Assembly (NCBI GenBank): GCA_014879535.1
Contig: JACSRX010000009.1
Location: 1 to 53,383 of the forward strand
DNA from: Chthoniobacterales bacterium
GTDB taxonomy: Bacteria > Verrucomicrobiota > Verrucomicrobiia > Chthoniobacterales > JACTMZ01
Length of the DNA stretch: 53,383 nucleotides
Direction of reading: 5' to 3'
In this document: positions 18,835 to 25,437 of the stretch, piece by piece
Numbering within the stretch: position 1 is the stretch's first letter
How the letters are laid out: the number at the start of each line of letters is the position of its first letter
Notes under the pieces: model-generated
What the model saw: only the letters and a program-made list of their open reading frames with translations
The model's database searches: none
Told to the model about the DNA's origin: nothing
Made by a program: the position numbers and the translations under genes

Positions 18835-19947
18835 TCAGCGCACGGCTTCGTAGCCCCCGGGAACGCCCCCCTTGGAGAGGACGAACTGGAAGAGGTGGAG
18901 GCTTCGTGCGCGGAAGGCGCCGGCGCACCCGAGCAGGTAATACCGCCACATCCGGTGGAAGCGGTCGCCGTAGCGGTCCCGGAACTGCGGCCATGCCGCC
19001 TGGAAATTGCGCTCCCATGCCATGAGCGTCGGGTCGTAATACGCCCCGAAGTTGTGCACGTCCTCGATGAGGAAGATCCCATCGGCCGCCCGCGCGACCA
19101 GCGCCGCCGAGGGCAGCTCGGAATTGGGGAAAATGTAGCGTATGATCCATGGGTCCGCGCGCTCGTGCGTCGCCGATCCGCAGATTGTGTGGCAGAGAAA
19201 CAGTCCGTCGCTGCGCAGGCAGCGGGCCGCGCACTCCATGTAGTGCCGGTAGTTGCGCGCACCGACGTGCTCCATCATCCCCACGCTCACAATGCGGTCG
19301 AAGTGTTCGTTCACATCCCGGTAATCCTGCAGGCGGATCTTGACGGACAGGCCGCGGCACGCTTCCTGCGCGTGGGCGCATTGCTGTCCGGAGATGGTGA
19401 CGCCCGTCACATCGCATCCACAATGCTCCGCGGCATGGCGGGCGAAGCCGCCCCAGCCGCAGCCGATGTCGAGCAGGCGCATGCCGGGTCGGAGCCCGAG
19501 TTTGCGGCAGATGAGGTCCATCTTCTGGCGCTGTGCGGTCTCGAGGTCCGCGGTGCCACGGAAATAGCCGCAGGAATACTGCATTGCGGGGTCGAGCATC
19601 GCCGCAAAGAAATCGTTGCCCAGATCATAGTGCTTCTCCCCCACGACGCGCGCCCGCTGCCGGCTTTGGGGATTGAAGCTCGCCCGTGCCAGCAACGCGG
19701 CGAGCATCGCGCGCTTTTTCCCCGGAAGCAGGTCCTCCAGACGGACACGCGCGGCATGGCAACTCATCTCATCCAGTGCATCGCAATCCCACCATCCCTC
19801 CATGTAGGACTCGCCCATCCCCAAGGTTCCGTTTGCCAGGACACGGCGGAAAAAGTCCGGATTGTGGACACGAATGTCCCATGCCCGCTTGCCATCGATC
19901 GCGATGTCCGCGGCGGCAAAAAGTTCCTCGATTGCAGTTCTGTGCAC
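18835..19947 (-). CDS. cfa: Cyclopropane-fatty-acyl-phospholipid synthase
   Basis: About 370 residues, closely resembling E. coli Cfa along its length. Visible signatures: 'IRVHNPDFFRRVLANGTLGMGESYMEGWWDCD', quoted here only in part, 'VVGEKHYDLGNDFFAAMLD', SAM motif 'RLLDIGCGWGGFARH', 'VSVGMMEHVGARNY', and the end 'CAGAFRARSLHLFQFVLSKG'. Cfa methylenates unsaturated acyl chains of membrane lipids using SAM. The GTG at 19947 is chosen because the alignable region begins right after it (HRTAIEELFAAADIAIDG). ATGs at 20109 and 20169 would run back into the upstream gene and add sequence with no Cfa likeness. A small CCCCG/CGGGG hairpin sits at 19976-19990. Confidence 0.93.
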   Translation of the reverse strand: MHRTAIEELFAAADIAIDGKRAWDIRVHNPDFFRRVLANGTLGMGESYMEGWWDCDALDEMSCHAARVRLEDLLPGKKRAMLAALLARASFNPQSRQRARVVGEKHYDLGNDFFAAMLDPAMQYSCGYFRGTADLETAQRQKMDLICRKLGLRPGMRLLDIGCGWGGFARHAAEHCGCDVTGVTISGQQCAHAQEACRGLSVKIRLQDYRDVNEHFDRIVSVGMMEHVGARNYRHYMECAARCLRSDGLFLCHTICGSATHERADPWIIRYIFPNSELPSAALVARAADGIFLIEDVHNFGAYYDPTLMAWERNFQAAWPQFRDRYGDRFHRMWRYYLLGCAGAFRARSLHLFQFVLSKGGVPGGYEAVR

Positions 19948-20044
19948 GGCGCTTGCGGGGTTGGTGCAACAGCAGCCCCGTTTTGCGGGGACACGAGTCA
20001 AGTCTGCCCCAGCTTTCCGCGCCGGGAAAGCCAATGTTCCCGTC

Positions 20045-21016
20045 TCAGGGTTGATTTTCCGGATGGCGATGCCGTTTTCTCCAACGGGCACAGAGATCCC
20101 TGCTGGCATCAGCCCAGTCCGGAAACCCGAAGGAAAAGCCCGAAGCTGCCAACCTTGAAGGAGCCACACGCCGGCTCTTGAGGATCAGTTCGGTTTCCGT
20201 CCGCAGAAGAACCGCCCCCACCTCAAGCATCCAATCCGCCGCCGGCAGACCCACCGGGATTCCCCATGCCCCGCGCAGGGCACGCATGAACTCCGAATTG
20301 GGCAACGGATTCGGAGAGCAAAGGTTGACCGGCCCCTCCATCTCCGGATGCTCCAGAATCCAGAATATGGAACGCACAAAATCCCGGTCATGAATCCATG
20401 AGACATATTGCCGTCCGTCACCTGAACGGCCGCCCAAGCCGAAGCGCACGAGGCGCAGAAGTATGTCGAATGGTCCGCCCTCGCCGGGGCTCATGAGAAT
20501 CGCGGAACGAAGGAGCACTTTGCGCGTCGAAGGAGTTGACGTCCCATTCATCGTCTGCTCCCAGCGTGTCGCCACGTCGATGCTGAATCTCCATGTATCC
20601 GGCGCGCCCGGTTCGGTTCCGCCGATGAGCCCGGAGAATTCGTCATTTGGCGCGTCATAACGGTGCTCGTAAATAGTCGCCGTGCCCGCCTGCAGCCAGA
20701 CCTTCGGCGGCGCGGAGGCTCCGGAAATCGCCTTGCCGACAATGCGGGTGGATTCCACCCTTGAATCCATGATCTCGCGCCGGTTCTTTGCGCCATAGCG
20801 GCAGTTCACACTCCGCCCGGCAAGGTTGATCACGGCGTCGGCCCCTTCGAGTTCCGACGCCCAGGGCCCGGAAGTCCGACCGTCCCAATGCACCATGCGC
20901 CACGGCGCGGGCCTCGGGCTGCGGCTCAACACGACCACGTCATGGCAGGCCTCGTGGAATGCACGCGCAAGAACCGTTCCGACATGACCCGTGCCGCCGG
21001 GAATGACGATTTTCAC
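20045..21016 (-). CDS. TIGR01777-type NAD(P)-dependent epimerase/SDR
   Basis: 323 residues of the extended short-chain dehydrogenase family, TIGR01777/SDR39U1 type. The N-terminal nucleotide motif is 'IVIPGGTGHVGTVLARAF', followed by 'ADAVINLAGRSVNCRYG', 'NRREIMDSRVESTRIVGKAI', and the C-terminal 'EGPVNLCSPNPLPNSEFMRALRGAW' segment with 'SRRVAPSRLAASGFSF'. The GTG at 21016 overlaps the stop of the SRPBCC gene as GTGA; an upstream ATG would only add non-conserved residues. Its substrate is unknown. Its place between an SRPBCC protein and Cfa suggests a lipid or polyketide-like intermediate. Confidence 0.88.
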   Translation of the reverse strand: MKIVIPGGTGHVGTVLARAFHEACHDVVVLSRSPRPAPWRMVHWDGRTSGPWASELEGADAVINLAGRSVNCRYGAKNRREIMDSRVESTRIVGKAISGASAPPKVWLQAGTATIYEHRYDAPNDEFSGLIGGTEPGAPDTWRFSIDVATRWEQTMNGTSTPSTRKVLLRSAILMSPGEGGPFDILLRLVRFGLGGRSGDGRQYVSWIHDRDFVRSIFWILEHPEMEGPVNLCSPNPLPNSEFMRALRGAWGIPVGLPAADWMLEVGAVLLRTETELILKSRRVAPSRLAASGFSFGFPDWADASRDLCARWRKRHRHPENQP

Positions 21017-21954
21017 CGTTCGCCCTCCGACTGCCTTTTGATCTCCCGCAGCACCCGCAGGTGGATCTCGTGGATGATCCCATCGGACAGCCGGTGCCAA
21101 TACCAATCAGGGGTGATCCGTTGGAAATACCATGTGGTTCCCTCGAGGATCACTGTTCCATTTTCCTCCCAGAGCCGGAACCTGCCCCGCGTGGAAACGA
21201 AGGTGTCATGAAGGTGCGGCGTGTCGAGATGCCCGTGGGGACTGAATTCCTTCATCGGGGGCGGATTGGATGTGACGGAGAATTCCAATGTGTGCGGGGA
21301 ATCCCAGACGGTGATCGGTTCGACGAAAGGCCCCGTGGAGAAGACACAATGCCGGATGGCGCCCACGCCCTCTCCGTCGATGCGCGCACTCACCGGATAG
21401 GCTATGCCGAGGCGGAAAATGCCGCGCGGCAGCTCCTCGATGCGGTCGAATTCGATCACATTTTTCCACACCTCATGGATCGGGGCCTCGATTTCCACGC
21501 GCGAGGCAACCTCGTGCAAAGCCGGCTCCGGAGGCTGCATGTATTCAAAGCCGAGAAGAGCCGGAAACACTGCCACCAGCAAGAGAGGCATGAGAAAAGT
21601 CGCCCGCGCGGAGAGATTGCGGCCCAGCAAATATCCCAAAGCCGCCCCGACCAAGCAGAGTGCCGCAGCCAAGGGGAATGCCATGACAAGGCAGATCAAC
21701 CCATCGATTGCGAAGACGAGAATGAATCCACCCAGAGCCAGAATCGCGAGCAGCGCGACGCCATAGCACGCTCCCCACGAGGCATTGCGCCACTTTCGGA
21801 ATATCAGGGCTGAGAGGAAGGATACCAGAACCGGCAATCCCAAGAACAGAGCCCATCCATAGGTTCCGAGCAGGCGGACTGCCACGAACGCTCCTCCGAG
21901 ACCGATCACAGCCGGAAGAAAAACGGCCGTGAGAACGGGAGCCTTACCTCGCAT
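21013..21954 (-). CDS. Membrane protein with C-terminal SRPBCC (START-like) domain
   Basis: 313 residues. The N-terminal ~150 are four to five hydrophobic helices (starting MRGKAPVLTAVFLPAVIG). Residues ~160-305 form a polyketide-cyclase/SRPBCC-like ligand-binding domain ('VEIEAPIHEVWKNVIEFDRIEELPRG', quoted in part; 'GAIRHCVFSTGPFVEPITVWD'; 'WHRLSDGIIHEIHLRVL'). SRPBCC domains bind hydrophobic ligands, so a membrane-tethered lipid-binding role is inferred. The ATG at 21954 has a perfect GGAGG six bases upstream (21961-21965). It overlaps its upstream neighbour by 11 nt and the epimerase gene by 4. Confidence 0.82.
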   Translation of the reverse strand: MRGKAPVLTAVFLPAVIGLGGAFVAVRLLGTYGWALFLGLPVLVSFLSALIFRKWRNASWGACYGVALLAILALGGFILVFAIDGLICLVMAFPLAAALCLVGAALGYLLGRNLSARATFLMPLLLVAVFPALLGFEYMQPPEPALHEVASRVEIEAPIHEVWKNVIEFDRIEELPRGIFRLGIAYPVSARIDGEGVGAIRHCVFSTGPFVEPITVWDSPHTLEFSVTSNPPPMKEFSPHGHLDTPHLHDTFVSTRGRFRLWEENGTVILEGTTWYFQRITPDWYWHRLSDGIIHEIHLRVLREIKRQSEGER

Positions 21955-22408
21955 GAACCGCCTCCATAGGATTTTTTGTGTCGCTTCCAATTCCCGGAAG
22001 CATTCCCACGGAGAGATACAGGACGGCCCACGAGGAATAGACCGCCAAAAGGATCACGTGGACAACGGTGCGTGAAGGAATTCCGCGCCAATGGCTGCTG
22101 CTGTAGTAACAAACCTGCAGCATGGCGCGAACACCCCAGAAAATCCCGATGGCACAGGCAAGCCAGCGATACACCGGATCACCTCCCGCAGCAATTTGGG
22201 GGGCAAACCGCCATGTCAACACGGCAAAGATGAGAAGCGCTGCCGAAACGAACCACGTGTGGACGTGGAAAACCTGCCGGACCAGGAGCGGCATCCGTTC
22301 GATGTCCGATTGCCACCGCATGATGCGCGCGACATTCAGGTTGAGCACCGCCAGACAAGCCTGCCCTGCGGCCGCCAGCAACAATCCGGTCTCGAGCATC
22401 CGGTTCAT
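21944..22408 (-). CDS. Four-helix membrane protein, paralogue A
   Basis: 154 residues with four predicted transmembrane helices (about 6-24, 45-65, 82-102 and 113-135). The ATG at 22408 overlaps the stop of the upstream paralogue in an ATGA. It shares with that neighbour the pattern VRQVFHVHTWFV...VLTW...AAGGDPVYRWLA...IFWGVRAMLQ, so the two arose by tandem duplication. I do not recognise a named family. The context suggests a role in the membrane-lipid operon, perhaps as a heteromeric subunit of the acyltransferase. Confidence 0.75.
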   Translation of the reverse strand: MNRMLETGLLLAAAGQACLAVLNLNVARIMRWQSDIERMPLLVRQVFHVHTWFVSAALLIFAVLTWRFAPQIAAGGDPVYRWLACAIGIFWGVRAMLQVCYYSSSHWRGIPSRTVVHVILLAVYSSWAVLYLSVGMLPGIGSDTKNPMEAVHAR

Positions 22409-22815
22409 CGTGCGGGAAAGATTGCGACCCAACCGTAGATGATGGTCAGGCCGATGAAGGCGCACGTCAGCGCGTGATAGCCCGCGATCCGGAAACCATT
22501 TGTGAGAAATGGCCGGGCATCGAAGACAAACCATTGCACACCCAGCCGGGCCAGCCAGAACACGGCGATGAAGGCGCCGAGTGACCGCGCCACCGGATCA
22601 CCGGAGGCCATGGCTTCCGCGTTGAGGAGCGTGAGCACGCCGAATCCCGCGATGACCAGAACGATGAATGCCCCATAGACCCAGAAGAGACGACGCATGA
22701 AGGGATGCAGCCCTGCGAGGTTTCCGCGCCAATCGAGGGCATGCGGTGTCAGTGCGCTGGCGATGAGGATCGCGAAGTGAAGGACGCCCGCCGTCTGGAT
22801 CATCAGGGTTTTCAT
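22405..22815 (-). CDS. Four-helix membrane protein, paralogue B
   Basis: 136 residues, four hydrophobic helices, beginning MKTLMIQTAGVLHFAILIAS. It shares with paralogue A the patterns MRRLFWVYGAFI / VLTLLNAEAMASGDPVARSLGAF / FWLARLGVQW, aligned without large gaps. ATGA overlaps link it to the acyltransferase upstream and to paralogue A downstream, so all three are co-translated. The function is unknown. Confidence 0.75.
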   Translation of the reverse strand: MKTLMIQTAGVLHFAILIASALTPHALDWRGNLAGLHPFMRRLFWVYGAFIVLVIAGFGVLTLLNAEAMASGDPVARSLGAFIAVFWLARLGVQWFVFDARPFLTNGFRIAGYHALTCAFIGLTIIYGWVAIFPAR

Positions 22816-23741
22816 AAGGCATGAATGACCTGCAGGAACGGAAGCATCACGCGCTCGACGAAGATGGGCGGAAACAGCAGCCCCGCCGGGGCCGCTGTCA
22901 CAACCAGAACGAACATCCTGCCCCGCACCCCACGCTGCAGTCCGACCGCTCTTCCGAATGCCGAACGTTCTGCAAGGACACCTGCCCCCTGCAGCAGGAA
23001 ATACAAAGTGGGCAATCCATAACCCCCGCGCGCCGGCAGAGAGATGGCCGCCTCATGCACCAGTCCCGAGGCAAGGAACGTCAGCAGCGTCGCCGTCGCG
23101 ATTCCGCACGGTCGCCGCAGCGGCTCGAAGATGTTGCGGCGGACCAAGTCATTGAACCCCCGGTTCCAGCGCAGCCCCCAGAATTCCCCCAAGGAACGCG
23201 CCGCGATCGGCATCCTCATGATCGGACGCGCGTCGATCCCCGCCGACTGCCAGGCAAGCGCCAGCAAATGGAATGCGCCGAAATGCAGCAGAATGATCAA
23301 CCCGACCATTCCGGTCCACCCCTGCAGCAAGGCGCCGGGAAGCAGGCGCGCGACTCCCCAGACGAGGAACCCTCCAAACAGGATTTTCAGACCGGCAAAG
23401 AACCACGCGCGCCTCTCCGGCTTTTCCGGACGGCTGCGCGCATTGAGAAAGGCTCCGGCATCCATCCCGGGCCAGAGCAGAAGGTAGGCGAGCGAACGCC
23501 TCCACGCAACCCCCCCGACCACTTCCCGTCCGTCACACCATGTCAGCCATTTGCACCCGGCGAAAATCGCAAGGGCGATGGCCCACATGAGCACCCATGC
23601 AGGCAGCGGCCACGCAACCAGAACGGCAGCCGACGGAAGCAAGAGCAGGGGCAGCCAGCGTGCTCTCCCGACCAACAAGGCTCCGTCCGCAGCCCCATGC
23701 GGAGTGATGGCTGGACCTTTCGCCATGTGCAATGGGTTCAT
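22812..23741 (-). CDS. MBOAT / wax-synthase-like membrane O-acyltransferase
   Basis: 309 residues from the ATG at 23741; an ATG at 23726 is an alternative. There are about eight hydrophobic helices. The MBOAT hallmark 'SLGEFWGLRWNRGFNDLVRR' and the catalytic-His segment 'FLASGLVHEAAISLP' match the wax-synthase-like branch (PF13813 type) also found in plants and fungi. These enzymes transfer an acyl chain from acyl-CoA to a hydroxyl; the acceptor here is unknown. It starts 13 nt after the preceding stop and overlaps the next gene in an ATGA. It is the likely catalytic core of the operon. Confidence 0.82.
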   Translation of the reverse strand: MNPLHMAKGPAITPHGAADGALLVGRARWLPLLLLPSAAVLVAWPLPAWVLMWAIALAIFAGCKWLTWCDGREVVGGVAWRRSLAYLLLWPGMDAGAFLNARSRPEKPERRAWFFAGLKILFGGFLVWGVARLLPGALLQGWTGMVGLIILLHFGAFHLLALAWQSAGIDARPIMRMPIAARSLGEFWGLRWNRGFNDLVRRNIFEPLRRPCGIATATLLTFLASGLVHEAAISLPARGGYGLPTLYFLLQGAGVLAERSAFGRAVGLQRGVRGRMFVLVVTAAPAGLLFPPIFVERVMLPFLQVIHAL

Positions 23742-23754
23742 ATGCCGGGGCGCT

Positions 23755-24129
23755 TCATGCCGGAAGCGGCGGAGGGGTGGTTCCGGCCCTGGCGCGGCGG
23801 CGCAGTTTGGCGAGAACAAGCAGGTTGAAGAAATGCATGACCCCGAGCGTCAGCAGCACGACTCCCATCTTGCCGCTCAGGGCTTCGAATACTTCCTTCG
23901 GACTATCAACCCGGATGCCAAGTTTCAGAAACAGGCAGATGAAGCCCAGGTTGATCAGGTAGAATCCCACGACCAACAGATGGTTGATGCTGTCGGCCAA
24001 TGGCTCGTTCCGATGGAAACAATCCACCAGAAAAACCCGGCCGTTCTTGAACAGGGTGTGCGCCACCCAGACGGTCAGGGCGATGCTGATGACCAGATAC
24101 AGGCTGTAGGTGAGGAGGATGTGGTTCAT
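23755..24129 (-). CDS. Small integral membrane protein, first gene after the GbsR-like regulator
   Basis: 124 residues with three hydrophobic helices (MNHILLTYSLYLVISIALTVWV; HLLVVGFYLINLGFICLFLKL; MGVVLLTLGVMHFFNLLVLAKL, each quoted up to its core) and a basic, proline-rich tail. No family is recognised. It has no Shine-Dalgarno sequence, only an A-rich leader. One of the two operator-like repeats (24147-24170) lies 17 nt upstream of its ATG, so the regulator upstream probably controls this gene and those following it. Confidence 0.75.
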   Translation of the reverse strand: MNHILLTYSLYLVISIALTVWVAHTLFKNGRVFLVDCFHRNEPLADSINHLLVVGFYLINLGFICLFLKLGIRVDSPKEVFEALSGKMGVVLLTLGVMHFFNLLVLAKLRRRARAGTTPPPLPA

Positions 24130-24146
24130 GGTTTTTGTGTTTTTTG

Positions 24147-24170
24147 TATTTCCGATAAATAATGAAAATT
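24147..24170 (-). promoter_or_regulatory. Putative GbsR-type operator, copy 2
   Basis: The plus-strand reading TATTTCCG-ATAAATAA-TGAAAATT matches copy 1 (24715-24738, TATTTTCA-ATAAATAC-TGAAAATA) at 20 of 24 positions, including the eight-base spacer. It sits in the 55-nt gap between the regulator stop and the next start. A repeat this well conserved in two leaders of one locus is most simply read as a binding site for the regulator itself. Confidence 0.65.
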
Positions 24171-24184
24171 ATGGGCAAAATTTT

Positions 24185-24715
24185 TCATCCCGCGAAAAGC
24201 TTGGCGGCCAGCTTCATGATCTTGCTTTGTTCGGAGGACGCCGCCGTCTCCAGAATGCGCTCGGCCAGCCGGAGAAACTCCTGGAGGGCGTCGATCTGAT
24301 CGGAAAAGTCCTTCGCCTCCCGGCTTTTGAGCCCGCGGGTCTTGTCCCGGCATCTCTGCAGAATCTCCATGGCCGGGGTGATCTCCCGGCGTTTCCGCTC
24401 GCGGGCGATGATGCAGAACATCTTCCACACATCCTTCTCCGCCACGAAGTATTCCTTGCGCTCCCCGGGCCGGAGCACAGAGCGGATCAACCCCCAGCCG
24501 ACAAGATCGCGCAGATTCGTGTTGGCGTTGCCGCGGCTGATCCGAAGCTCCGCCATGATCTCGTCCGTGGTCAGCGGCTCCGGGCTCGTGATCAGCAAGG
24601 CATGGATCTGCGCCATCGTGCGGTTGATCCCCCACGCATTGCCGATCGCGCCCCACTGGGACACGAAATCCTGCCGCGCTTCGCGGAGGGTGGAGGATGT
24701 CTCATCGTTTTTCAT
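24185..24715 (-). CDS. GbsR/MarR-family transcriptional regulator
   Basis: 176 residues with a winged helix-turn-helix at about 22-90 ('MAQIHALLITSPEPLTTDEIM', 'LRISRGNANTNLRDLVGWGLI', 'GERKEYFVAEKDVWKMF', each quoted within its core). A helical C-terminal dimerisation region follows. This pattern is typical of the GbsR family, known for choline/betaine control in Bacillus and for lipid or membrane genes elsewhere. The ATG has no Shine-Dalgarno, and the predicted transcript starts at or next to it. It overlaps its own putative operator, suggesting autoregulation. Confidence 0.85.
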   Translation of the reverse strand: MKNDETSSTLREARQDFVSQWGAIGNAWGINRTMAQIHALLITSPEPLTTDEIMAELRISRGNANTNLRDLVGWGLIRSVLRPGERKEYFVAEKDVWKMFCIIARERKRREITPAMEILQRCRDKTRGLKSREAKDFSDQIDALQEFLRLAERILETAASSEQSKIMKLAAKLFAG

Positions 24716-24750
24716 ATTTTCAATAAATACTGAAAATACAATCTGGTCAA
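24715..24750 (-). promoter_or_regulatory. Regulator promoter with overlapping operator, copy 1
   Basis: Minus strand: -35 TTGACC (24745-24750), a 17-nt spacer, and -10 TTTATT (24722-24727). A perfect 8+8 inverted repeat TATTTTCA-N8-TGAAAATA (24715-24738) covers the -10 box and touches the start codon. The inferred +1 is at about the ATG, giving a leaderless message. A protein bound here would block RNA polymerase. Confidence 0.65.
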
Positions 24751-24846: not shown

Positions 24847-25437
24847 ATGGATTCGTCCGGCCTGCGCTGGTTGCTGCGGGAGTGGCCGTATGCGGCGCTT
24901 TTCACCGCGGGATTCCTGCTGGCGCTTGCCCCGTTCTTTGGTGAGTTGGGGCTGCCTCTGCTGCTTGTTTACCTGCAGCTTCCACTCTACATGGTGCACC
25001 AGTTCGAGGAGCACCGGCAGGACCGCTTCCGGAAGTTCTTCAATGAGGTCCTTGGGGGTGGACGGGAGGCGCTGACTCCGGGCGCCGTCTTCGTGATCAA
25101 TTCCGTCGGGGTATGGGGCGTCGATCTTGCCTCGCTCTATCTCGCGTGGAGCGTCGGATTGGGCTGGGGCTTGGTTGCGGTTTACCTCACGCTCGTCAAT
25201 GCCGTGGTGCACATTGTCATGTCCGTGGCGTTGCGGCGCTACAACCCCGGGCTCTGGACCGCCGTCTTCGTGTTTCTCCCCGCGGGGCTCTGGGCTCTGG
25301 TCGTCGTGTCTGCTGCCAGCGGGGCCTCATGGCACGCACATGGGCTTGCGGCGGGGGCGGTCGTTCTCCTGCATGTGCTCATCATGGTTTGGGCCCGGAT
25401 GAGACTGTTTCGGTTCAGGCGCCGCGGGGCGACCTAA
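24847..25437 (+). CDS. HXXEE-domain membrane protein
   Basis: 196 residues with about five hydrophobic helices. The family-defining motif H51-QF-E54-E55 ('LYMVHQFEEHRQDRFRKF') follows the first helices, and a later 'LTLVNAVVHIVMSVALRRYNPG' supplies the second conserved His region. HXXEE proteins (PF13787) are of unknown function; the His/Glu set suggests metal binding or catalysis in the membrane. It is divergent from the GbsR-like gene (131-nt gap 24716-24846), so the regulator might also affect it. Its last four bases overlap the convergent acyltransferase gene. Confidence 0.82.
   Translation: MDSSGLRWLLREWPYAALFTAGFLLALAPFFGELGLPLLLVYLQLPLYMVHQFEEHRQDRFRKFFNEVLGGGREALTPGAVFVINSVGVWGVDLASLYLAWSVGLGWGLVAVYLTLVNAVVHIVMSVALRRYNPGLWTAVFVFLPAGLWALVVVSAASGASWHAHGLAAGAVVLLHVLIMVWARMRLFRFRRRGAT

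Follow-up and report, generated by a model that had tools for sequence, protein, structure and literature searches.

The 53,383-nucleotide stretch of DNA from a Chthoniobacterales bacterium analysed here, referred to as the window, contains a gene for a GbsR-family regulator flanked by two related sites. Judging from sequence comparisons, both sites are very probably operators of the protein encoded between them, which would act as an autorepressor and as the repressor of an adjacent membrane/lipid operon. The sites are read as landing sites of this regulator because they recur beside the same regulator and membrane-lipid-type genes across the phylum, and because their core is that of the footprinted site of CydE, a distant GbsR-type protein. 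We infer physical binding, repression rather than activation, and the presence of an inducer. Autoregulation and co-regulation by one protein had been predicted in an earlier note on this DNA and are now supported at the level of the sequence, since the sites are conserved, are placed at the regulator and at the operon, and are found in trans when the operon has moved.

The regulator gene (24185..24715, minus strand) encodes a protein of 176 aa with a MarR-type winged helix and the recognition helix ISRGNANTNLRDL. Its N-terminal winged helix-turn-helix was matched by Pfam MarR_2 at 29.2 bits (cut-off 27). The CudC equivalog NF047500 scored 51.8 bits, below its cut-off of 218; the protein is related to CudC, yet stands outside that equivalog. 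Its best match in the PDB was Mj223 (1ku9; profile E 1.3e-17), the modelling template used for GbsR, and the same structure ranked first when the AF2 model (pLDDT 87) was searched with Foldseek (E 3.6e-10). As modelled, the window protein appears to have the GbsR/Mj223 fold, and its conserved aromatic residues include F17, W21, and W28. Three marks of the GbsR subfamily were present, namely the MarR-type winged helix-turn-helix, the relation to Mj223 in sequence and fold, and a predicted A/T-rich inverted repeat in the own or target promoter. As for the CydE/CioR type, the operator was found, the consensus of 77 aligned sites being the core of CydE site 1, but adjacency to cydAB/cydCD was not: the neighbours are DUFa, MBOAT, DCC, SRPBCC-like, TIGR01777, and Cfa genes.

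The first site (operator 1, predicted to be autoregulatory; 24715..24738, minus strand) is TATTTTCAATAAATACTGAAAATA, which reads TATTTTCAGTATTTATTGAAAATA on the minus strand, and its last base is the A of the regulator's start codon ATG (24715). Its arms form a perfect 8-bp inverted repeat (8/8 paired; 10/12 pairs across the 24-mer), and its core, TTTCAG-TATTTA-TTGAAA (24718-24735, minus strand), has one mismatch to the consensus TTTCAG-N6-CTGAAA, with an A/T spacer, obtained from the orthologs. The second site (operator 2, predicted; 24147..24170, minus strand), TATTTCCGATAAATAATGAAAATT or AATTTTCATTATTTATCGGAAATA on the minus strand, is a degenerate copy. By direct reading it is identical to site 1 at 20 of the 24 bases, but just 5/8 of its arm positions are paired (7/12 pairs across the 24-mer) and it has four mismatches to the TTTCAG-N6-CTGAAA core. 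The two matching inverted repeats of the earlier note do exist as 24-mers flanking the gene, and the first is a full repeat; for the second, this label was overstated. The distance of 17 nt between the end of site 2 and the ATG of the next gene (24129), also noted before, was confirmed by reading. When the 55-nt intergenic region was shuffled 20,000 times with its composition preserved, a likeness of 20/24 to site 1 was reached just twice (~1e-4), and the next-best 24-mer in the window (score 16) overlaps site 2. The genome scan that had been called for showed the two sites to be the sole good matches in the 3.17 Mb of the bacterium's own genome (up to three mismatches to the arms), beside two weak matches with unrelated spacers; the reversed-pattern control gave 0 matches.

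The condition of site 2 brings in another reading, in which operator 2 has decayed and is functionless here, so that the regulator controls only its own gene directly and RNA polymerase reads through from the regulator promoter into the operon, which is thereby under the control of operator 1 alone. Such an arrangement would suit the four core mismatches and the 5/8 arm pairs, the lack of a clear promoter beside operator 2, and the closeness and common direction of the regulator and operon genes. We nevertheless consider it unlikely. Site 2 still resembles site 1 at a level that chance reaches in about 1e-4 of cases, and its right half, TCG[AG]AAA, has similar counterparts in loci L048, L055, L057, L058, and L062, so that this variant has been kept elsewhere; the orthologs and the sites in trans described below speak against it as well.

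Ahead of the regulator, a putative sigma70 promoter, TTGACC-N17-TTTATT (24722..24750, minus strand), can be read, with TTGACC at 24750-24745 and TTTATT at 24727-24722. Both boxes proposed earlier are present and TTTATT lies within site 1, which covers the -10 box as had been claimed. The pair was not listed by a simple promoter scan, whose -10 rule is stricter. In the 77 orthologous loci aligned on the site, T was found at -14 in 81%, within a TTG-rich flank, and WWTACT-like letters occupy +8 to +13 of the site, which would be fitting for a -10 box whose final letters also belong to the operator. Because operator 1, the -10 box, and the start codon overlap or abut (24713-24738), we predict that the mRNA of the regulator is likely leaderless or has a very short leader. 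The ATG directly follows the site in several orthologs too.

This geometry also bears on whether the regulator could be an activator or a dual regulator at these sites. MarR-type proteins are, as is generally known, able to activate, and the second site lies close to the next gene, where the promoter geometry is unclear. However, operator 1 overlaps both the -10 box and the start codon and lies at the promoter in the orthologs as well, and CydE, CioR, GbsR, and OpcR are all repressors, several of them autoregulatory (PMC6096048, PMC11837568, PMC7396694). Activation is accordingly rated as very improbable here.

The predicted target operon lies on the minus strand and begins with DUFa, a small membrane protein of 124 aa that belongs to no Pfam family (23755..24129). 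It is followed by a gene for an MBOAT_2-type membrane-bound O-acyltransferase (22812..23819; Pfam MBOAT_2 35.3 bits), whose start codon is uncertain and which overlaps DUFa, and by the genes of two small membrane proteins, sm1 (22405..22815), which recurs in the trans operons of L186, L190, and L151, and sm2 (21944..22534, start uncertain). The run continues with a membrane protein having a weak SRPBCC-like C-terminal part (21013..21990; Polyketide_cyc2 below cut-off) and a TIGR01777/YfcH-type NAD(P)-binding oxidoreductase (20045..21106; TIGR01777 218.9 bits, above cut-off), and its last overlapping gene encodes the cyclopropane fatty acyl phospholipid synthase Cfa (18835..20169; NF008686 567 bits, cut-off 400). 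For this operon, DUFa-MBOAT-sm1-sm2-SRPBCC-TIGR01777-Cfa, we infer a lipid role. On the plus strand, a divergent HXXEE-domain gene (24847..25437) starts 109 bp beyond operator 1 and, sharing the intergenic region with it, is possibly a second, co-regulated target.

The regulator was absent from all ten same-genus genomes examined, and, as congeners lack the gene, conservation was judged across families. This absence (locus 18835-24715) suggests gain by transfer or repeated loss. For the wider comparison, 80 named orthologous loci were used, mostly from Verrucomicrobiota together with the myxobacterium Nannocystis. With up to two mismatches, the regulator-promoter site was found in 76 of the 80 orthologs against 0.8% of shuffles, and with up to one mismatch in 65 (0.05% of shuffles), counts that are inflated by the common descent of the orthologs. 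TTTCAG/CTGAAA forms the invariant part, with A/T letters outside it that vary. The earlier arms, TATTTTCA-N8-TGAAAATA, were replaced by TTTCAG-N6-CTGAAA as the consensus, following the orthologs. A consensus for the regulator type was indeed to be had from such sites, as the earlier note had expected, but with revised arms and for the group with an S-R-[G/S]-N helix only.

In the orthologs, the regulator gene is typically followed by those for DUFa, a DCC/DUF393 protein, and the TIGR01777 oxidoreductase. A second site (up to two mismatches, no more than 330 nt beyond the regulator gene) was found at 44 of the 57 loci with a target gene next versus 4 of the 21 loci without one (Fisher p 9e-6; shuffles 1%). 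The window itself is among the 13 of 57 without a recognisable second site, its copy having drifted, and some of the others carry similar drifted copies. That most orthologs with the operon carry another site in the corresponding position argues against autoregulation alone. Within the order, the sample comprised eight genomes with an ortholog; one is that of the window, the remaining seven belong to different families (59-73% identity), and nearly all of these sequences have both sites in place. Of the 197 genomes of the order, 20 were found to contain DUFa; the regulator adjoins it in 20/20, the promoter site is present in 20/20, and a recognisable second site in 17/20. The sites are present in most relatives that keep the genes, both in the order and among the 80 orthologs; the absence that had been proposed as decisive against the prediction was not observed.

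Several observations concern more distant relatives. In Nannocystis (L067, Myxococcota), the regulator, DUFa, and DCC genes occur with both sites, an apparent case of transfer between phyla. The distant homologs L014-L034 (25-38%) have no common palindrome, and viral contigs yielded just two relatives.

The strict pattern TTTCAGNAWWWNYTGAAA was used for sites away from the regulator. Across 50 genomes with the regulator it matched 57 distinct sites, compared with a single match of the reversed control. Of the 54 genomes around the window, those with matches were 6/8 regulator-bearing genomes and 5/46 others, as single matches. A loose pattern with one mismatch allowed stayed near the control level and was of no use for listing a regulon. 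In Verrucomicrobia LW23 (L146), a strict site precedes TIGR01777 in an operon detached from the regulator. Others precede DCC/DUF393 genes that head a DCC-sm2-DUFa-sm1-MBOAT-like run (L186, L190), further DCC/DUF393 genes (L189, L194), DUFa (L182, L192), DUF2071 (L187), and an SRPBCC-like membrane gene (L150, L197; likeness judged by eye). A site also lies before a TetR_C gene (L147, L188), followed by an ABC1 kinase gene in one genome. Among the remaining exact matches, some seem to be due to chance, e.g., one with a GC spacer on contig 32 of genome G000. Sites directly ahead of the same genes in trans indicate that the operon is normally served by a separate operator, which again weakens the case for a functionless operator 2.

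At L152 (genome G074), the core lies within a long palindrome ahead of an SDR gene and a photolyase-related (DPRP) gene, a hint of a light or photo-oxidative link. A literature search for TIGR01777/DUF393 linked with photolyase, or for GbsR with Verrucomicrobia, returned nothing useful. The LitR and RpoE-ChrR lipid/photo-oxidative stress regulons contain overlapping kinds of genes (Cfa, TIGR01777, SDR, photolyase-related), which is a mere lead: LitR is of the MerR type and RpoE-ChrR is an ECF sigma system, both unrelated to the GbsR-type regulator.

CydE of Alishewanella sp. WH16-1 is an autoregulatory GbsR-type repressor of cydEAB, and its binding site 1, TATTTCAGAAATTTCTGAAAGTTCA, is known from a DNase footprint and EMSA (PMC6096048). 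The footprinted TTTCAG-AAATTT-CTGAAA has a core identical to the consensus described here, a likeness between operators. As in the window, the regulator gene heads the controlled operon; CydE, however, controls cytochrome bd and is reportedly sulfate-responsive (PMC6096048), whereas the window operon encodes membrane/lipid-type enzymes. CioR of Chromobacterium violaceum is likewise a repressor with autorepression, and its target is a cytochrome bd operon (PMC11837568), unlike that of the window. Bacillus subtilis GbsR and OpcR belong to the same MarR subfamily and resemble the system proposed here in having A/T-rich operators, that of GbsR being an inverted repeat, and in acting by repression (PMC7396694). 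Their operators are described as differing in sequence and spacing, and their targets are choline/osmoprotectant genes; the GbsR half sites are 4 bp apart and form a roadblock downstream of the start, and the OpcR operator lies over the -35 box (PMC7396694).

The footprint also bears on whether the repeats are sites for a protein at all. That they might instead be terminators, hairpins in the RNA, or A/T palindromes arisen by chance would suit their A/T-richness and the T-rich stretch ahead of the second site in the orthologs. The conservation of TTTCAG/CTGAAA around a variable spacer, also upstream of genes in trans, the nearly empty reversed control, and the identity of the core with a footprinted operator make such an explanation extremely improbable. 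The terminator or RNA-hairpin version was rejected also on its own terms, the repeats having no GC stem and not being listed by the terminator scan.

GbsR/MarR regulators at cydDC/cydAB in Rhizobium, Chelatococcus, Pseudochrobactrum, and Microvirga have TTTCAG-N6-CTGAAA upstream of the regulator and an S-R-S-N helix; they are ~35-45% identical to the window protein, and their targets are cytochrome bd genes. Among homologs with an S-R-[G/S]-N helix, including these alphaproteobacterial cyd-gene regulators, TTTCAG-N6-CTGAAA was found in 44/44 with an unambiguous site, and among those with an A-R-S-N helix, TTTCTG-N6-CAGAAA was found in 25/26, again counting unambiguous sites. L282 is an exception, and L285, L288, and L295 have mixed half sites. 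These figures are suggestive of a rule by which Ser before the helix Arg would read TTTCAG and Ala TTTCTG. On a tree built with the helix columns retained, there are just 2 helix-state changes and 1-2 independent pairs, and the association is not significant when descent is allowed for. The verrucomicrobial paralogs and the Methylobacterium homologs are of the same family and have a palindrome at the same place, but differ by A-R-S-N and TTTCTG-N6-CAGAAA. Most of the GbsR-type A-R-S-N paralogs (L042, L043, L044, L276-L293) have TTTCTG-N6-CAGAAA upstream, and L043 also heads an MBOAT-sm1-TIGR01777-sm2 cluster. The Methylobacterium plasmid homologs L234, L236, and L237 have long perfect palindromes across the gene start (arms of 15-17 bp in L234 and L236), with DUF4166 and SDR genes next in L236 and L237.

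In the mechanism that we propose, a dimer of the winged-helix regulator most likely binds TTTCAG-N6-CTGAAA. Bound at operator 1, it would cover the -10 box and the start of its own gene and block RNA polymerase, giving autorepression. Bound more weakly at operator 2, it would repress the operon from DUFa to Cfa, by acting on a local promoter or by standing as a roadblock in the way of read-through. Once the regulator is released by an inducer, its own level and that of the membrane-lipid enzymes would rise together.

The predicted targets are genes of the kinds TIGR01777, DCC, MBOAT, SRPBCC-like, and Cfa, and in single genomes also a desaturase, an ABC1 kinase, and a photolyase-related protein. 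We tentatively suggest, as a possibility somewhat short of even, that they form a phylum-wide GbsR-family regulon of Verrucomicrobiota for membrane-lipid remodelling, possibly with light/oxidative-stress genes, and that the Ser/Ala helix-operator rule holds for the family. The regulator class and the operator type were already known; as far as the literature consulted goes, the regulon is new to them. For a phylum with little experimental data on regulation, the analysis provides a consensus of the operator together with a regulon that can be tested. It connects the regulator with an operator footprinted in a distant relative, and it brings several uncharacterised membrane genes together as a single functional unit. 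How GbsR-type proteins of similar sequence read different operators is a question raised in PMC6207618, and the covariation of the helix residue with the operator base would offer a direct test of it.
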